Source: Bacteroidales bacterium
Lineage (GTDB): Bacteria; Bacteroidota; Bacteroidia; Bacteroidales; Marinilabiliaceae
Direction: 5' to 3'
Assembly (NCBI GenBank): GCA_024401355.1
Contig: JAKSLF010000004.1
Coordinates: 62,001-126,000 of the forward strand
DNA length: 64,000 nt
The translations under genes and the position numbers were made by a program. The notes below the pieces were generated by a model. It was not told the origin of the DNA, did not search any database, and was given only the letters and a program-made list of their open reading frames with translations. This document shows positions 2,092 through 64,000 of this stretch, piece after piece (the stretch's first letter is position 1; the number at the start of each line of letters is the position of its first letter).

Positions 2092-2967
2092 TTATTTATA
2101 TATAGCTTTCTTTCCTGCCAAGAGTGTATTCTTCATCAACGACACAATTGTCATCGGTCCAACTCCACCTGGAACAGGAGTTATATAGCTGCACTTTGGA
2201 GCTACGTTCTCAAAGTCTACATCTCCCTTCAAGCGCCAACCACGTGCCGCTGTCGCATCAGTAACTCTTGTTGTACCAACATCGATGATTACTGCACCAG
2301 GCTTAACCATGTCTGCTGTGACAAATCCTGGCTTACCTATGGCTGCCACAATTATATCCGCCTGAAGACAAAGCTCCTTCATGTTAGGTGTTCGGCTGTG
2401 ACATACCGTAACTGTACAGTCGATTCCCTTCTGCGAAAGCAATATGCTCATCGGACGACCAACTATGTTGCTTCGGCCTATCACAACGGCATGCTTGCCC
2501 TTTGTGTCTATATGATAACGTGTGATAAGGTCTACTATACCCTGTGGAGTTGCCGAGATAAACGCTGGAGCACCTATCGTCATTCTACCTACGTTTGCTG
2601 GATGGAATCCATCTACGTCCTTTCTTGGGTCTATAGCTTCCGTTACTTTCTCCTCAGAAATATGCTTTGGCAATGGCAACTGAACGATGAATCCGTCAAC
2701 ATCAGGATCGTTGTTCAACTCATCCACTACCTTCAACAACTCTGCCTCTGTAATGTCACTCTCAAAGCGCTTGAGTGTCGAGGTAAAACCGCACTCTTCA
2801 CATGCCTTGACTTTGTTCGCAACGTATGTTTCGCTACCACCATCATGACCTACAAGTACTGCTGCCAAATGAGGACGCTTCTCGCCTCGCGCAACCATCT
2901 GCTCTACTTCGGCTGCTATCTCCTGACGTATCTCGGCCGATACTTTCTTTCCATCTATCAGTTCCAT
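2092..2967 (-). CDS. folD: Bifunctional methylenetetrahydrofolate dehydrogenase/cyclohydrolase FolD
   Basis: FolD interconverts 5,10-methylene-, methenyl- and 10-formyl-tetrahydrofolate using NADP, in the cytosol. The 291 residues contain all family signatures: [13 protein letters not shown] at 48-60 with the catalytic Lys54, VQLPLP at 95-100, the nucleotide-binding loop [10 protein letters not shown] at 164-173, and [10 protein letters not shown] at 264-273. Length is normal (about 285-300). The ATG at 2967 lies 30 bases after the ffh stop, so the gene is probably cotranscribed with ffh. No separate TAnnTTTG element was found directly upstream. Confidence 0.97.
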
Positions 2968-2997
2968 GGATATATTGCTTTATTGTTTTCCTTATAT

Positions 2998-4332
2998 TTA
3001 TTTGTGACGACCACCCAAGAATCTCGACATCTTCTTGCCTGCATTTGTATGCATGAATTTCATCATCTTACGAGTGTCCTCAAACTGCTTCAACAGACGG
3101 TTGACATCCTGTATCGACGTTCCACTACCATCTGCTATACGCTTACGACGCTTTCCATCTATGATATTCGGATTCTCTCGCTCTGTAGGTGTCATCGAGA
3201 AGATTATCGCCTCTACCGACTTGAATGCATTGTCGTCAATGTCTATATCCTTTATCATCTTGCCAACGCCTGGTATCATCGAAGCTAAATCCTTCAGGTT
3301 ACCCATTTTCTTGATCTGCTGAATCTGAGCCATGAAGTCGTTGAAGTCAAACTGGTTGTTCGCTATCTTCTTGCGCAACTCACGCGACTCCTTCTCGTCA
3401 AAGCTCTCCTTCGCACGCTCAACAAGTGACCTAACGTCACCCATTCCAAGGATTCGGTCTGCCATACGGTTTGGATGGAACACATCAAGTGCATCCACCT
3501 TCTCACCTGTACCGATAAATTTAATTGGCTTGTTGACTACACTTCGTATTGATATTGCCGCACCACCCTTGGTGTCACCATCAAGCTTCGTCAATACAAC
3601 ACCATCAAAATCAAGACGCTCATTAAACTCCTTCGCCGTGTTGACTGCATCCTGACCTGTCATCGAGTCAACAACAAACAATATTTCGTGAGGCTGCAGA
3701 GCCGACTTCAATGTTGCGATTTCGTTCATCATCTCCTCGTCTACCGCCAGACGACCTGCTGTATCGACTATCACAACGTCATTGCCATTCGACTTGGCCT
3801 GCTTGATCGCGTTCTGAGCTATCTCTACCGGATTCTGATTTCCCTCTTCGCTATATGCCACTACTCCTATCTGCTCTGCAAGCACTTTCAACTGGTCTAT
3901 GGCCGCAGGACGATATACGTCACACGCTACTACCATAGGATTCTTGCCTCGCTTTGTCTTGAGGAGATTTGCTATCTTACCTGTGAATGTTGTCTTACCA
4001 GAACCCTGAAGACCCGACATCAAGATGACTGTCGGATTTCCCTTCATATTGATGTCCTGAGCCTCACCACCCATCAAGGATGTAAGCTCATCATATACTA
4101 TCTTGACAAGCTGCTGACCTGGCTTTACAGATGTCAACACTTGCTGACCTATCGCCTTCTGCTTTACATCTTCTACAAACTGCTTCGCTACCTTATAGTT
4201 CACATCGGCATCAAGAAGAGCCTTTCGAACCTCCTTAAGTGTCTCTGCTATATTGAGTTCTGTGATTTTACTTTCACCCTTAAGGGCTTTAAACGAGCGC
4301 TCTAATTTTTCGCTCAGGTTCTCAAACATCAT
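2998..4332 (-). CDS. ffh: Signal recognition particle GTPase Ffh
   Basis: Ffh binds signal peptides and 4.5S RNA and docks ribosomes at FtsY for membrane insertion. Its order is an N-terminal four-helix bundle (1-90), then the G domain with GLQGSGKTT (107-115), DTAGRL (190-195) and TKLDGDTKGG (248-257), then the M domain (about 325-435). At 444 residues it has normal length. The C-terminus ends in KKMSRFLGGRHK rather than a long Met-rich tail. Two adjacent ATGs (4332 and 4329) are possible starts. A TAnnTTTG element at 4387-4394 gives this gene its own promoter, which heads an ffh-folD-DUF4861 unit. Confidence 0.97.
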   Translation of the reverse strand: MMFENLSEKLERSFKALKGESKITELNIAETLKEVRKALLDADVNYKVAKQFVEDVKQKAIGQQVLTSVKPGQQLVKIVYDELTSLMGGEAQDINMKGNPTVILMSGLQGSGKTTFTGKIANLLKTKRGKNPMVVACDVYRPAAIDQLKVLAEQIGVVAYSEEGNQNPVEIAQNAIKQAKSNGNDVVIVDTAGRLAVDEEMMNEIATLKSALQPHEILFVVDSMTGQDAVNTAKEFNERLDFDGVVLTKLDGDTKGGAAISIRSVVNKPIKFIGTGEKVDALDVFHPNRMADRILGMGDVRSLVERAKESFDEKESRELRKKIANNQFDFNDFMAQIQQIKKMGNLKDLASMIPGVGKMIKDIDIDDNAFKSVEAIIFSMTPTERENPNIIDGKRRKRIADGSGTSIQDVNRLLKQFEDTRKMMKFMHTNAGKKMSRFLGGRHK

Positions 4333-33691: not shown

Positions 33692-35260
33692 CTACTTAGC
33701 CCAAGCCTTGCCTTCCTCGGTGCGACGCCATGTAAAATAGCCATCGAGAACCTTAAGTGCATTCTCGCTAGCAACAGGACCGACAAATGGAGTAGGACCT
33801 GTGAGGTGCATTGCCTGTGGGGAATCACAAGTGAAAGCTGGCCACTCAGGGACACCTTCACCATTAGGATCACCTGTCTTAGCAAAGTTAGTCCAGTATT
33901 TGCCCATAGCGACAGAAAGAGGCTTATCGACATCTGGACGCTCAAACGAATCCATGTGCTGGAAGACAAAGTTGACATCCTGTCCATGATATGAGCCATG
34001 ACCAAAATTCTTGTCACCTTCTGGATAGTCAGGATGCTCGTCGAAATAGTAGAGGAAAACCTTAGACTTACCTGTCTGTGACTGCAAGCGAGCCCAGTTC
34101 CAAGTCTGCCAGCCAAATGCAGCATCTCGCATGAGGTCACGGGACTGTCTGCCGGCGTCCTCATCGGTATATGGATAAGCTTCAAGAAGCGCATCGGCGA
34201 ACTGGCCATAGCGAGCCTTGGTACTCATGGTGTAGTATTCAGGACCGGCAGGACCGAAATTAAAACTCAAGCCCTCGTCAGAATTATATCCAATAAGAAC
34301 AGGAACATCATTATACTTGCCCTCGGCATAGAGGACAGACTGATCATCAGGAATAACATAGCCGTCGACTACTGGCCAGCTGTTGCCACCAAGTCCACGT
34401 GCTGCAAACTTGGAAGCATCCATAGCACGAAGTTCTTCCAAAGAAGATGCACCCAACGACTCCATAAGTTTAACGCCATCGGCCTCGGCCTGAGCGAGAG
34501 TCTGCATATTCTCACCAGGGTAGTTAGTCGGACGTGTTGGGCCAAACGAGCCGCCACTCTGTGAAATGGCACCCGAGATAAGACCCTTGGCGAGAGGTGA
34601 GGCACAAAGCATGCTGACAGAGATGCCGCCAGCCGACTCACCAAAAATAGTTATTTTGTCGGGGTCACCACCAAACTTGGCAATGTTATTCTTTATCCAC
34701 TGCAGACCTGCGATTTGGTCAAGGAGACCATAATTGCCAGACACATGCTCAGCGTTCTCGGCCGAAAGTTCTGGCAACGAAAGGAAGCCAAGTTGACCTA
34801 CACGGTAGTTGATACTTGCAAGGATAAGTCCGTCAGTAGAACGGGCAAGCGCCTCGCAGTCGTTGTTAGGGTCGGCAGTATTACCAAACACAAAACCACC
34901 GCCATAAATCCAAACGAGTACAGGCAACTTCTCGTCGGCACTCTTGGCAGGAGTCCATACGTTGAGATAGAGACAATCTTCGCTATAGTCAGCCGAAGGT
35001 TCGCCCTGTATAGGACCAGTGGCATATTTTGTAGTATTGAGGATAGAATCCCATGGCTGAACAGGCTGAGGAGCCTTCCAACGAAGGTCGCCAACAGGAG
35101 GCGCAGCGAATGGTATGCCCTTGAAAATGGTTAGACCATCGGCATGATAGCCCTGAATTGTGCCACCTTCGACATCGACGACGGCATCGGTCAGTTTTGC
35201 TTGCTGGCATGAGACAAAAAATACAGCCATGGCAGAAAGCAAATAGTGTTGTAATCTCAT
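33692..35260 (-). CDS. Type B carboxylesterase, lipoprotein
   Basis: The 522 residues have a lipoprotein signal (SAMAVFFVSC, Cys18) and a single carboxylesterase type B domain. Motifs are FKGIPFAAPPVGDLRW, EDCLYLNVWTP, oxyanion loop VWIYGGGFVFG, nucleophile FGESAGGISV, Glu in GYNSDEG and His in FGHGSYHGQD. It is a paralogue of the N-terminal half of the neighbouring double esterase. It probably deacylates polysaccharide-derived or small aromatic esters in the cell envelope. It starts 37 bases after the LytTR regulator gene with no TAnnTTTG between, so it may be cotranscribed with the sensor/regulator pair, and it ends at the hairpin at 33614-33652. Confidence 0.88.
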   Translation of the reverse strand: MRLQHYLLSAMAVFFVSCQQAKLTDAVVDVEGGTIQGYHADGLTIFKGIPFAAPPVGDLRWKAPQPVQPWDSILNTTKYATGPIQGEPSADYSEDCLYLNVWTPAKSADEKLPVLVWIYGGGFVFGNTADPNNDCEALARSTDGLILASINYRVGQLGFLSLPELSAENAEHVSGNYGLLDQIAGLQWIKNNIAKFGGDPDKITIFGESAGGISVSMLCASPLAKGLISGAISQSGGSFGPTRPTNYPGENMQTLAQAEADGVKLMESLGASSLEELRAMDASKFAARGLGGNSWPVVDGYVIPDDQSVLYAEGKYNDVPVLIGYNSDEGLSFNFGPAGPEYYTMSTKARYGQFADALLEAYPYTDEDAGRQSRDLMRDAAFGWQTWNWARLQSQTGKSKVFLYYFDEHPDYPEGDKNFGHGSYHGQDVNFVFQHMDSFERPDVDKPLSVAMGKYWTNFAKTGDPNGEGVPEWPAFTCDSPQAMHLTGPTPFVGPVASENALKVLDGYFTWRRTEEGKAWAK

Positions 35261-60327: not shown

Positions 60328-61521
60328 TTACTTAAGACGAGCGAGAGTCTCCTTGATACGCTTCATAGCTTCGATGATATTTTCGTCGCTTGTAGCGTAG
60401 CTGAAACGGAAGCATTCAGGAGAACCGAAAGCATCGCCACCAACTGTTGCTACATGACCAACTTCGAGGAGGAACATAGCCAAGTCGGTAGAGTTGTTGA
60501 TCTTGCGGTCGCCATCAGCCTTGCCGAAATAAGAAGAGCACTTAGGGAAGAGGTAGAAAGCACCCTGTGGGTCGTTAACCTCGAGTCCAGGAATTTCCTT
60601 AGCAAGCTTAACGATAAGGTTCTTGCGACGCTCGAAAGCCTGACGCATTGTCTCAACGCAAGTCTGGTCGCCAGCGAAAGCAGCCTCGGCAGCCTTCTGA
60701 GAAACTGAGCAAGGACCAGAAGTGTACTGACCCTGGAGCTTGTTGCATCCCTTAACGATCCATTCTGGAGCAGCGATGAAACCGATACGCCATCCTGTCA
60801 TTGCGTATGCCTTAGATACACCATTGATGATAACTACACGGTCCTTGATGTCAGCAAACTCGGCCATAGAAGCGTGCTTGCCAACATAGTTGATATGCTC
60901 GTAGATTTCGTCGGCGATGACGATAACACGAGGATACTTGAGGAGGACATTCTTGAGAGCTTCGAGCTCAGCCTTGCTATATACCGAACCAGTAGGGTTA
61001 GATGGTGAGCAGAGGACGAGGGCACGTGTCTTTGGAGTTATTGTCTTCTCGAGCTGCTCAGGAGTAATCTTAAAGTCAGCCTCGATCTTAGCTTCAACGA
61101 AAACAGGAGTACCTTCAGCGAGAAGAACCATCTGAGGGTAGCTTACCCAATAAGGAGCAGGGATGATAACTTCATCACCAGCATTGACGAGAGCCATAAT
61201 GGCGTTGCAGACAGACTGCTTAGCACCGTTGGAGCAGAGAATCTGAGATGGCTTGTAGTCGAGACCGTTCTCGTTCTTGAGCTTTGCAACGATAGCATTT
61301 TTGAGGTCTGGGTAACCTGGTACAGGAGAATAGCGAGACCAGTTGTCATCGATAGCCTTCTTGGCAGCCTCCTTGATGTGATCAGGAGTATTAAAATCAG
61401 GTTCGCCAACGCTCATGTTGATTACGTCGACACCCTGAGCCTTAAGTTCGCTGCTCCTCTGAGACATAGCGAGAGTTGCCGATGGGGCAAGTCTGTTAAG
61501 ACGATCTGAAAGGTTTTCCAT
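60328..61521 (-). CDS. Class I aminotransferase, aspartate aminotransferase type
   Basis: From ATG 61521 (MENLSDRLNRLAPSATLAMS) the product is 397 residues; an ATG two codons earlier (61527) is possible. Features are DVINMSVGEPDFNTPDHI, PGYPDLKNAIVAKL, the Tyr of IPAPYWVSYPQM, NPTGSVYSKAEL, IADEIYEHINYV, the PLP lysine in INGVSKAYAMTGWRIGFIAA and the substrate Arg in CFRFSYATS. It matches the AspC/AspB subgroup I-gamma common in Bacteroidota. It transfers amino groups between aspartate or related amino acids and 2-oxoglutarate. It is a single-gene unit with its own promoter (61601-61608) and terminator. Confidence 0.93.
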   Translation of the reverse strand: MENLSDRLNRLAPSATLAMSQRSSELKAQGVDVINMSVGEPDFNTPDHIKEAAKKAIDDNWSRYSPVPGYPDLKNAIVAKLKNENGLDYKPSQILCSNGAKQSVCNAIMALVNAGDEVIIPAPYWVSYPQMVLLAEGTPVFVEAKIEADFKITPEQLEKTITPKTRALVLCSPSNPTGSVYSKAELEALKNVLLKYPRVIVIADEIYEHINYVGKHASMAEFADIKDRVVIINGVSKAYAMTGWRIGFIAAPEWIVKGCNKLQGQYTSGPCSVSQKAAEAAFAGDQTCVETMRQAFERRKNLIVKLAKEIPGLEVNDPQGAFYLFPKCSSYFGKADGDRKINNSTDLAMFLLEVGHVATVGGDAFGSPECFRFSYATSDENIIEAMKRIKETLARLK

Positions 61522-61600
61522 TAACATTAAGTTATTGAATGTGTATATATTATAGTCTGTATTGATAACACTCCGACCATTAGGGTCAGATATATCGGGG

Positions 61601-61608
61601 CAAAATTA
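61601..61608 (-). promoter_or_regulatory. Bacteroidota -7 element (TAATTTTG) of the aspartate aminotransferase gene
   Basis: The minus strand reads TAATTTTGC, a perfect TAnnTTTG, about 80 bases upstream of ATG 61521. The leader contains a small GACC-ATTA-GGTC hairpin. Confidence 0.7.
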
Positions 61609-61701
61609 CTCTTTTTTTGGCAATTAGGAGATAAAGTGACAATATTTTTTTATAAATATACAGAGTTAAAAATTGATATATATTATATAAGGTATAATGA
61701 C

Positions 61702-61738
61702 ATAAAAAAATTAAAGCCTCAGAAACCCGAGGCTTTAA
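61702..61738 (-). terminator. Orphan minus-strand terminator
   Basis: TTAAAGCCTC (61711-61720) pairs perfectly with GAGGCTTTAA (61729-61738). On the minus strand the stem is followed by a run of seven T's. No minus-strand gene lies to its right within the window, so the transcript it would end is unidentified. It may simply insulate aspC. Confidence 0.8.
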
Positions 61739-62162
61739 TCAACAATAGACAACAACAGATGAAAAAAATCTCCGTTTCACAACAGAGTAAATATCTATCA
61801 GAACATTTAAATTCATTTTGATAATGCAAGTATAATTGTTTTTTTTTAAAAACAAATGCAAATAAGCATTAATTTTTTAAGAAAAATAAACACTAATTCG
61901 TATCTACTTGATAATCAACAAGAAAAATTTTCAGTCAAAATAGCGTCAAAAAGGCAAAAAGTGAGGCAGTTGTCTATTTTGCAGAGAGTTGTAAGAAGAA
62001 TGTCAGACAATTACCAGAGGAGAAAAGAAGAAACATTCACATAGTAAGGATAAGGTATGTGTAGGTCGAGAGTACGTGTTTCGATGAAAATATAACTTTG
62101 CAATTACAAATAAAAGAGGACAAAAAGAGGTCGCTTTTATAGGAGAAGGTGACAAAAAAGAT

Positions 62163-62170
62163 TATATTTG
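62163..62170 (+). promoter_or_regulatory. Bacteroidota -7 element (TATATTTG) facing the structured RNA
   Basis: TATATTTGC on the plus strand is a perfect TAnnTTTG. It would start a transcript near 62177 that runs through the structured RNA at 62281-62455 and possibly into the small secreted protein gene at 62552. Confidence 0.65.
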
Positions 62171-62280
62171 CGGTGTAGAAAGACACACACAAATCGATTT
62201 AATTAACAGAACAATAACCATAAACATTGTAATAAAGACAAGAAAGAACAGTAAATAACTGACACATACAGGAAAAGCGT

Positions 62281-62455
62281 TATAGCTTATTCTTGAGTAC
62301 CATCAGAATCTGGACAATTCCGAAAAATACTCTCAAGAACAAGACTCGATGACGCTCACGCTTAGGCGTGGGCTTTGTTGCGTTGTTTGAGAGTATACAG
62401 GTAGTCCAGAACCTTGATGGTGCTCAGGCAAGCAAAGAGTTCTGCGCCTTTTGTT
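62281..62455 (+). ncRNA. Rod-shaped structured RNA, 6S RNA-like candidate
   Basis: The two arms fold into one long rod. GCTT (62285-62288) pairs with AAGC (62430-62433). The next stem is 62292-62305 with 62415-62428 (14 pairs), then TCTGGAC (62309-62315) with GTCCAGA (62404-62410). A large central bubble follows (11 bases at 62316-62326 against 7 at 62397-62403), then ATACTCTCAA (62327-62336) with TTGAGAGTAT (62387-62396). An apical hairpin GCTCACGC-TTAG-GCGTGGGC closes the rod at 62354-62373. Three stem positions are G-U pairs if the plus strand is transcribed but C-A mismatches on the minus strand, so plus is favoured. A weak hairpin and TTTTGTTTTTCTT follow at 62427-62460. A closed stem, open central bubble and apical stem are the hallmark of 6S RNA. 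The name is inference, as no covariance search was possible. Confidence 0.6.
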
Positions 62456-62551
62456 TTTCTTGTGTCAAATCACAGCTACCAAGCAGGACCCCGGCAAGGT
62501 TATGTCGGTGAACGATAACCACTAAGAGATAATACAATCAGACAAATCAAT

Positions 62552-62968
62552 ATGACGCAAAAAAGATTACTACTAGTATTTATGGCACTAGCAACAGGCA
62601 CATCGGCTTTGTGGGCAGATGAGAAGCCTGCTATTGTGGTAAACCAAAACACGTCGCCACAATATGTGAAGCTAACCACTGATGCCAAGATTACTATTTC
62701 GACTGAGGGCGGAGTAGCGAAATTCGTTGTAGACGAGTCGGCAGAAAAGGCAGACATTGCAGAAGGAGAGACAATTTCCTTTGGGGTGTATGACTTTGAT
62801 GATGCAGCGACAGCGATAGAAGAGATGTCGGCTGGCAAAGAGATAGTCGGGACAGAGTACTACACGCTTCAGGGCGTGAAATTAGAAGAGCCACAGAAAG
62901 GTGTGATAATAATAAAAGTCATCTATTCTGACGGAACAAGTAAGAGCTTAAAAACAATAAAGAAGTAA
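62552..62968 (+). CDS. Small secreted protein with Prevotella-type C-terminal motif
   Basis: The 138-residue product has a signal peptide (LLLVFMALATGTSALWA), a short beta-rich middle (YVKLTTDAKITISTEGGVAK), and a C-terminal block EYYTLQGVKLEEPQKGVIII followed by a Lys-rich end (SKSLKTIKK). The block resembles the YYNLQGVRVxxPxKGxYI ending found on many secreted Prevotella proteins and recalls a shortened T9SS sorting domain. No catalytic signature is present. It precedes the FISUMP gene by only seven bases, so the two are cotranscribed and may work together at the cell surface. Confidence 0.7.
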   Translation: MTQKRLLLVFMALATGTSALWADEKPAIVVNQNTSPQYVKLTTDAKITISTEGGVAKFVVDESAEKADIAEGETISFGVYDFDDAATAIEEMSAGKEIVGTEYYTLQGVKLEEPQKGVIIIKVIYSDGTSKSLKTIKK

Positions 62969-62975
62969 AGAATCT

Positions 62976-64000
62976 ATGAAAAAAATATTACTAACGGCCA
63001 TTATGGGGTTAATGGCTGTGTGCAGCATGGCACAGGACAAAGTGTATGTGCATTCTGATGGAATTGCATATCCATTTGACATAAACAAAGTAACAGAAAT
63101 CAACTTCATCCAAGGTTCGGATATTCTTGCAGAAGAGCCATTGGTAATAACAGGAGATGTAGTAGAAGTCGGAGTAGCGCAAGCGACTATTGCAGCAAAA
63201 GCTGTTGTATCAAGTCTATCTGCAGACTATAGAGTTGGTATATTGTATTGTGAGGAGAAAGATTACGTAGCCTCAAACTTCGTATATAGCAAGTATGACG
63301 ACCACAAGGATGCAGATTGGGTTTCAGCGGAGTATTCTGTTGTCTTGAACTCATTGTCGGCAGAGACAAAGTATTACTACAGAGCATACGCATACAATGG
63401 AGAGAAGAACCTATATGGAGAGGTGAAGACATTTACGACTAACGAATTGATACTCACAGAAGGAGATTGGATAGATCTTGGTTTGTCTGTCAAATGGGCG
63501 TCATTTAATTTAGGAGCTACTGCTCCTGAATTGAGTGGATCTTTCTACGCATGGGGAGAGACAGAGACAAAGAGCAACTACTCAGAGTCTACATCTTTGT
63601 ACTATGGAGTCGAGGGCATGGAAGATATTGCAGGCATAGACGGATTGGATGTCGCTCGTACGCTATTGGGCGAAGGTTATAGGATGCCTACACAATCAGA
63701 ATTCTCAGAGTTGTACAATAACTGTGACTGGTATTGGCTAAAATACAAAGGTGTTAATGGTTATTTTGTTCAGAGTAGAAGCAATTCAAACGGCATATTC
63801 CTTCCTGCTGCTGGCTGTCGTCTCGGGGAGGACCTCTACAATGAGGGGTCGTTCGGCTACTACTGGTCGTCTACTCCTTACACGGACGATGCCGTCAGCG
63901 CGTACAACCTCTACTTCTATTCAGGCTACGTCGACCCTTACAGCGGCAGCGATAACCGTCATCTCGGGTTCCCTATCCGTCCTGTTAAAGATTTAACTAT
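62976..64000 (+). CDS. Secreted FISUMP/C-type-lectin-fold protein, 3' end cut by window
   Basis: The frame opens at ATG 62976 (signal peptide ILLTAIMGLMAVCSMAQ) and is still open at base 64000, about 341 codons. The first ~45 mature residues include the same VYVHSDGIAYPFDINKVTEI pattern seen in Prevotella surface proteins. Residues about 55-160 look like a fibronectin III-type domain (SLSADYRVGILYCEE, LSAETKYYYRAYAYNG, YGEVKTFTTN). Residues ~165 onward match the FISUMP/DUF1566-type domain: WIDLGLSVKWASFNLGATAP, SFYAWGETETKSNYSES, EGYRMPTQSEFSELYNNC, LPAAGCRLG and GYYWSSTPY. From 63801 base composition and codon use change sharply (see the variable-region entry). It probably binds a ligand at the cell surface. 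It is the second gene after the small secreted protein. Confidence 0.8.
   Translation, partial: MKKILLTAIMGLMAVCSMAQDKVYVHSDGIAYPFDINKVTEINFIQGSDILAEEPLVITGDVVEVGVAQATIAAKAVVSSLSADYRVGILYCEEKDYVASNFVYSKYDDHKDADWVSAEYSVVLNSLSAETKYYYRAYAYNGEKNLYGEVKTFTTNELILTEGDWIDLGLSVKWASFNLGATAPELSGSFYAWGETETKSNYSESTSLYYGVEGMEDIAGIDGLDVARTLLGEGYRMPTQSEFSELYNNCDWYWLKYKGVNGYFVQSRSNSNGIFLPAAGCRLGEDLYNEGSFGYYWSSTPYTDDAVSAYNLYFYSGYVDPYSGSDNRHLGFPIRPVKDLT
63801..64000 (+). other. Putative diversity-generating retroelement variable region
   Basis: In 62 codons from CTT at 63801 to GTT ending at 63986, 31 end in C and only one ends in A, whereas the preceding 275 codons of the same gene use A-ending codons freely. 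Hand-counted GC of this stretch is about 57%. Many codons are of the type TAC, GAC, AGC, GGC, CTC or AAC, each reachable from AAC by changing one or both adenines. Runs such as codons 43-52 of the stretch (63927-63956) fit this best. The stretch encodes the ligand-facing end of the lectin-like fold (NRHLGFPIRPV). Template repeat and reverse transcriptase would be to the right of the window and are not visible, so the call is inference. Confidence 0.55.

Follow-up and report, generated by a model that had tools for sequence, protein, structure and literature searches.

An internal variable region candidate, homologous to a same-genus retroelement template, in a three-domain lectin-like protein of a Bacteroidales bacterium

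Target gene, partner gene and composition

The window analysed here is a stretch of 64,000 nucleotides (G000:C34:62001-126000) from a metagenome-style assembly, G000, of 2.9 Mb in 69 contigs that is about 85% complete. At its 3' end lie a small partner gene and the first part of a target gene with a variable region (VR) of the kind found in diversity-generating retroelements (DGRs). Coordinates are those of the window, and the comparison is with a DGR in the same-genus genome G011, described below.

62552..62968, forward strand: partner gene, 138 aa; the N terminus looks like a signal peptide by eye; the homologue in the G011 DGR is flanked by avd and the target
62976..64000, forward strand: target gene, the first 341 codons of an 804-aa ORF that ends past the window, at C34 position 127390
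63459..63800, forward strand: lectin-like domain 1, framework part, not rewritten; it departs from its counterpart in the G011 target at 102/326 aligned bases
63802..63992, forward strand: VR1, internal to the ORF, delimited by homology to the G011 template (188 bases plus one 3-base insertion)
63810..63974, forward strand: VR1 core (template positions 9-170), with changes at 26/53 adenines, 7/109 non-A sites and 5/52 third-position non-A sites; the core limits were our own choice, made to exclude the edges

The composition of the target gene changes sharply near position 63800. The GC fraction is 0.570 in 63801-63986 versus 0.410 in 62976-63800, and only 39 of 21272 window stretches (186 bases, step 3) have an equal or higher value. 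Codons ending in C account for 31 of the 62 in this stretch, compared to 51 of 275 upstream (Fisher p=9e-7). These counts bear out the preliminary description, which had reported a jump to 57% GC over 186 bases with half of the codons ending in C. Its placement of the stretch at the C terminus has to be abandoned: the gene is cut by the window edge, and the 804-aa ORF continues for 467 residues beyond VR1.

The complete ORF contains three lectin-like domains, with a VR-like block at the end of each (VR1 to VR3). The whole protein matches the FISUMP model TIGR02145 (57.3 bits, cut-off 41.65, in 3 stretches) and the Lcl_C model PF07603 (56.1 bits, cut-off 34.9); the window part alone (341 aa) stays under the Pfam cut-offs. 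Both families are assigned here by family models only, and we take them to have the C-type-lectin fold. Comparison with solved structures gave a single weak match (E=0.44), which was left aside. The target protein is probably surface-located or exported. Domains 31-40% identical to the window domain are also found in large phage records, namely those of Prevotella phage Lak and an IMG/VR contig (L129).

The partner gene is identical to that of G011 contig C10 at 342/417 bases (82%), with no adenine bias in the differences (18/131 A versus 57/286 non-A, p=0.13). Five close copies of the partner, with 78-100% protein identity, are found in the genus (C34 of the present genome, C7, C10 and C42 of G011, and C45 of G010). 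Each lies immediately 5' of a target, and two of these units are cut by a contig end. Together, partner and target make up a pair of genes that is also found repeatedly outside the cassette, and both products are predicted to be probably exported. A blastn search of window positions 61001-64000 found no cassette relic upstream of the partner, homology to the G011 locus beginning only at 62552. In the further units on G011 C7 (L123) and C42 (L124), the contigs break right before the VR; C7 retains a broken avd piece upstream that marks its unit as a duplicate from the cassette. On contigs C56, C23 and C12 of the present genome (L010, L011 and L012), further genes each contain one or two VR-like blocks, and the place of the partner is taken by another small gene, which has a T9SS sorting domain. 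The five blocks on these contigs show 11% to 24% non-A differences from their best-scoring templates, the closest fit being 15/134 in the first C56 block.

The same-genus template and changes at its adenines

A search of the stretch against 15 same-genus genomes gave 31 matches in 8 genomes, the closest in G008, G010 and G011. Among the 17 matched places that were aligned, one G011 copy stood out as AAC-rich. It lies outside the target gene and represents a non-coding template (TR). The contig that carries it, G011:C10 (JAKSLD010000018.1, from a Bacteroidales MAG of horse feces), holds a complete DGR cassette:

137-670: MutS_I-like gene (PF01624, E=8e-5, over the Pfam cut-off)
683-1042: Avd-like gene (two Avd models, each below its cut-off)
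1085-1501: partner gene
1512-2306: target gene, Lcl_C/FISUMP-like (Lcl_C match below the cut-off)
about 2670-2860: template, non-coding, AAC-rich
2890-4026: reverse transcriptase (RT) gene (RVT_1 over the Pfam cut-off; motif IGNLTSQ)

The Avd-like protein scores 29.6 of 40 bits with the bAvd model and 44.9 of 80 bits (E=1e-11) with NF033474. The motif IGNLTSQ is found in all 7 related RTs examined, which were chosen by their Y-V/M/A-DD box, and agrees with the (I/V/L)GxxxSQ motif given for DGR RTs in PMC3521204. The partner homologue within this cassette upholds the earlier proposal that 62552-62968 belongs to the same system. In a search of 71 genomes of the family, template matches (E<=1e-25) occur in 5 genomes, all of the same genus, and RT matches (E<=1e-20) in 6 genomes of 4 genera.

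Small MutS domain I-like proteins are found in DGR cassettes of the genus at L037 137-670 (E=8e-5) and L083 8371-8928 (PF01624 E=0.053, below the cut-off), and might perhaps shield retrohoming mismatches against repair. A second DGR type is represented by G010:C33 (L083) and G011:C27 (L085), which come from two species and are 98-100% identical over the accessory gene, the template and the first 840 RT bases and less so in the VR. Towards the 3' end of the RT, identity per 60 bases falls to 57-78%, and an RT fragment on C22 of the present genome (L046) starts at the matching point, RT residue about 305. This pattern reflects either a cassette exchange with a junction inside the RT or an assembly effect of shared sequence.

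For the adenine counts, the G011:C10 template (56 A, 132 other bases) served as the reference. The comparison covered 29 VR-like places and four templates (two identical); one wrongly delimited stretch (labelled G011 C27b?) was left out. The eight strongest matches to this template are given below together with VR2; the remaining 19 places agree better with template type B or D, or closely with none.

VR: changed template adenines; changed non-A bases
G011 C10: 24/56; 0/132
G011 C21: 28/56; 3/132
G011 C43: 26/56; 4/132
G010 C45: 27/56; 3/132
G010 C11: 31/56; 6/132
G008 C15: 31/56; 8/132
VR1 (window): 27/56; 12/132 (p=8.3e-9)
VR3 (same ORF): 27/56; 7/132
VR2 (same ORF): 30/56; 34/129

Stretch 63801-63986 is thus homologous to the same-genus template, and its changes are concentrated at template adenines, in agreement with the earlier identification of a DGR variable region in a FISUMP/Lcl_C-type protein. 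The preliminary description had also suggested looking for a near-copy beside an RT that differs only at adenines. A template beside an RT was found in G011 and not in the present assembly. Over the cores of the eight VRs (VR2 excluded), 211/424 adenine cells are changed versus 28/872 non-A cells. The framework of domain 1, compared with that of the G011 target, has no adenine bias (30/95 A, 72/231 non-A, p=1.0).

The non-A sites of VR1 are held unusually constant. They differ from the template at 7/109 core positions, whereas the flanking framework differs from its G011 homologue at 102/326 (all bases; p=2e-8), so that the core has about five times fewer differences. This argues that the internal VR1 was refreshed from a template. 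The same holds between VR1 and VR3 (11/109 non-A versus 122/335 in the D1/D3 frameworks, p=4e-8, with 31/53 changes at A sites), whereas VR2 behaves like framework (29/106 versus 92/393, p=0.44). The last VR, VR3, is DGR-like, and the middle one, VR2, is decayed. Third-position non-A changes from the template number 5/52 in VR1, 2/52 in VR3 and 18/51 in VR2; third-position changes in framework pairs number 58/130 (D2/D3), 65/107 (D1/G011), 70/113 (D3/G011) and 69/104 (D1/D3). Since two of the three like domains retain their silent non-A sites, constraint on the protein or its fold is insufficient alone, and replacement by template cDNA fits the pattern. Third-position adenines are changed in 16/32 cells over the whole template and in 7/16 in the core, where they come from 2 sites only, too few to tell mutation apart from selection at the variable positions.

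These silent sites also bear on the reading that VR1 belongs to an ordinary paralogue of a fast-evolving lectin family, shaped by diversifying selection and GC-rich for codon reasons. Many such domains are found in the genus, and the five further blocks on C56, C23 and C12 fit no template closely. However, VR1 and VR3, unlike the frameworks and VR2, keep the same silent non-A sites in different proteins and species, only 12/416 third-position non-A core cells are changed over the eight VRs, and the non-coding template adjoins a DGR-type RT in a same-genus genome. We therefore consider simple paralogy extremely unlikely.

Internal position and downstream stem-loops

Five VRs of the VR1 template type are internal, with 47 to 467 residues behind each: 467 after VR1, 47 in G011 C21, 237 in G011 C43, 235 in G010 C11 and 223 in G008 C15. 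The G010 C45 VR, with 3 residues behind it, is terminal. Strong stem-loops are found in the 3' flanks of the terminal VRs (VR3, z -4.3; G011 C10, -5.9; G010 C45, -3.7). No stem-loop beyond chance is found 3' of VR1 (z=-0.01) or G011 C21 (z=-0.46), and a single weaker one, within coding sequence, follows G011 C43 (z -2.1), G010 C11 (-2.7) and G008 C15 (-3.3). The 3' stretches of the latter three are homologous and count as one case. Their coding stem-loop may replace the intergenic one; of the three downstream contexts of internal VRs, one may thus rely on such a coding structure and the other two do without a stem-loop. In the reconstituted BPP-1 DGR, loss of the stem-loop is described as lowering activity without abolishing it (PMC12875486).

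An internal VR could also arise from a chimeric assembly in which the three-domain ORF is an artefact and VR1 truly ends its own gene. The assembly is metagenome-style with 69 contigs, and VRs are breakpoints in this genus, both of which leave room for such an error. Against it, all 804 codons remain open, and framework 3 differs by 23% from framework 2 and by 36% from framework 1, which shows that one sequence was not read three times. Moreover, two-domain chains are found on C56 and C23 of the same assembly as well as on G011 C46 and G012 C10, and internal VRs of the same template type are found in G011, G010 and G008. A chimera is accordingly very unlikely.

The BPP-1 DGR of Bordetella is phage-borne, whereas the present system lies on a cellular chromosome and differs further in its remote targets, internal VR, extra MutS_I-like and partner genes and lack of a stem-loop after VR1. 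It shares with BPP-1, as described in PMC12875486, the A-specific transfer from TR to VR, an Avd-like protein and a template located between target and RT. Targets distant from the cassette and matched to the template by homology are likewise reported for DGRs of Treponema denticola (PMC4891356) and cyanobacteria (PMC7517822). The cyanobacterial account gives 76 remote VRs, only near 3' ends (PMC7517822), unlike the five VRs here with 47 to 467 residues behind them. According to a survey of 36,611 putative targets, VRs typically lie at the C terminus within a modular layout that is near-universal, a position that, its authors suggest, allows the cis-acting elements to be intergenic (PMC8144416). 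Of 271 multi-VR DGRs, 31 are reported to have more than one VR in a single ORF (PMC6642488), similar to the arrangement here; that account, as far as it treats such ORFs, offers no test for the refreshing of internal VRs. The closest parallel in layout is an ORF of Marichromatium purpuratum with three VRs in three tandem FGE-sulfatase paralogues, which its authors call highly unusual and possibly an artefact (PMC3521204). In contrast to that ORF as described there, the present one has a decayed middle VR as an internal control, and other internal VRs are found in same-genus genomes. What is new here is that a VR lies inside a chain of three lectin-like domains, beside a decayed sibling that serves as the control. 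Searches of the open-access literature found no paper joining DGRs with FISUMP, nor any on the FISUMP domain.

Location of the machinery and proposed rewriting

The preliminary description expected the template, accessory gene and RT just past base 64000. This is not the case: the contig continues for 5.3 kb past VR1 to its end and contains no TR and no RT. In the present assembly (about 85% complete), searches with the VR and with the G011 template found no template, the latter matching VR-like blocks only, and the G011 Avd-like and MutS_I-like proteins find nothing at E<=0.001. Contig C22 encodes a 100-aa RT C terminus in its last bases (34732-34935 of 34940), a fragment from which the motif region is missing and which is nearer the G010 C33 lineage (50/90 identical) than G011 C10 (29/70). 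The genome thus has at least the end of one DGR-like RT, and no cassette fitting VR1 was found in the assembly. Avd of the G011 kind is found in 1 of the 15 same-genus genomes, G011 itself, so that G010 and G008 also have no visible cassette despite VRs of the G011 template type. In G011, contigs C7 and C42, which carry partner-target units, stop immediately ahead of the VR, and C43 breaks off 33 bases from its own; as contigs of this genus break at VRs, an assembly gap at a DGR is expected.

Contig C69 encodes a 554-aa RT-like protein (G000:C69:9086-10750; L008 1075-2739) right after a helicase-like ORF. It was rejected as a DGR RT, having QGSEILN instead of the SQ motif, a YRDD box and no VR or TR match on its contig; as a guess, it is possibly a defence-type RT. 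Scans of viral contigs, which reach close relatives only, found no relative of the RT and one of the lectin domain, and the RT matches in phage and plasmid records (105 and 1644, respectively) are all below 60% identity.

The missing cassette suggests another reading, in which VR1 is a former target: it was rewritten in the past, but this species has since lost the cassette or the cassette can no longer act on VR1. VR1 carries 7 non-A differences in its 109 core sites, mostly silent, plus the 3-base insertion, compared to 0, 1 and 2 in three G011 VRs, and two further changes in a 3' stretch that matches the template exactly in the G011 VRs. VR1 may therefore have drifted since its last rewriting. 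Yet the assembly is only about 85% complete, C22 ends within an RT, and G011 C7, C42 and C43 end at VRs. VR3 in the same ORF has only 2/52 third-position changes, and some of the 7 differences in VR1 may be real template differences, as position 81 differs likewise in VR3 and G008 C15. A lapsed target is a possibility to be taken seriously, although on this evidence we consider it somewhat improbable.

Stretch 63801-63986 is very probably a remote, internal variable region of a DGR. In the proposed mechanism, an Avd/RT complex encoded elsewhere in the same species, outside the assembly, would copy the non-coding template into cDNA, making errors where it has adenines, and this cDNA would replace the VR through homology. 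AAC codons would become NNC codons, so that residues vary in the C-type-lectin-like domain of a protein that is probably exported. The likely role of this protein is to adhere or to recognize ligands through several binding faces that would vary independently.

With internal, template-homogenised VRs beside a decayed one in a single chain, the explanation of C-terminal VRs by intergenic cis elements becomes testable. A broader proposal, which we consider evenly balanced between right and wrong, is that one template rewrites two VRs of one polypeptide, one of them 467 residues before the stop and without an intergenic stem-loop, so that retrohoming would tolerate fully coding 3' signals; the genus would thereby build multi-paratope adhesins from duplicated partner-target units scattered over the chromosome. 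A chain whose several binding faces vary independently of one another would also be a natural case of evolving avidity.
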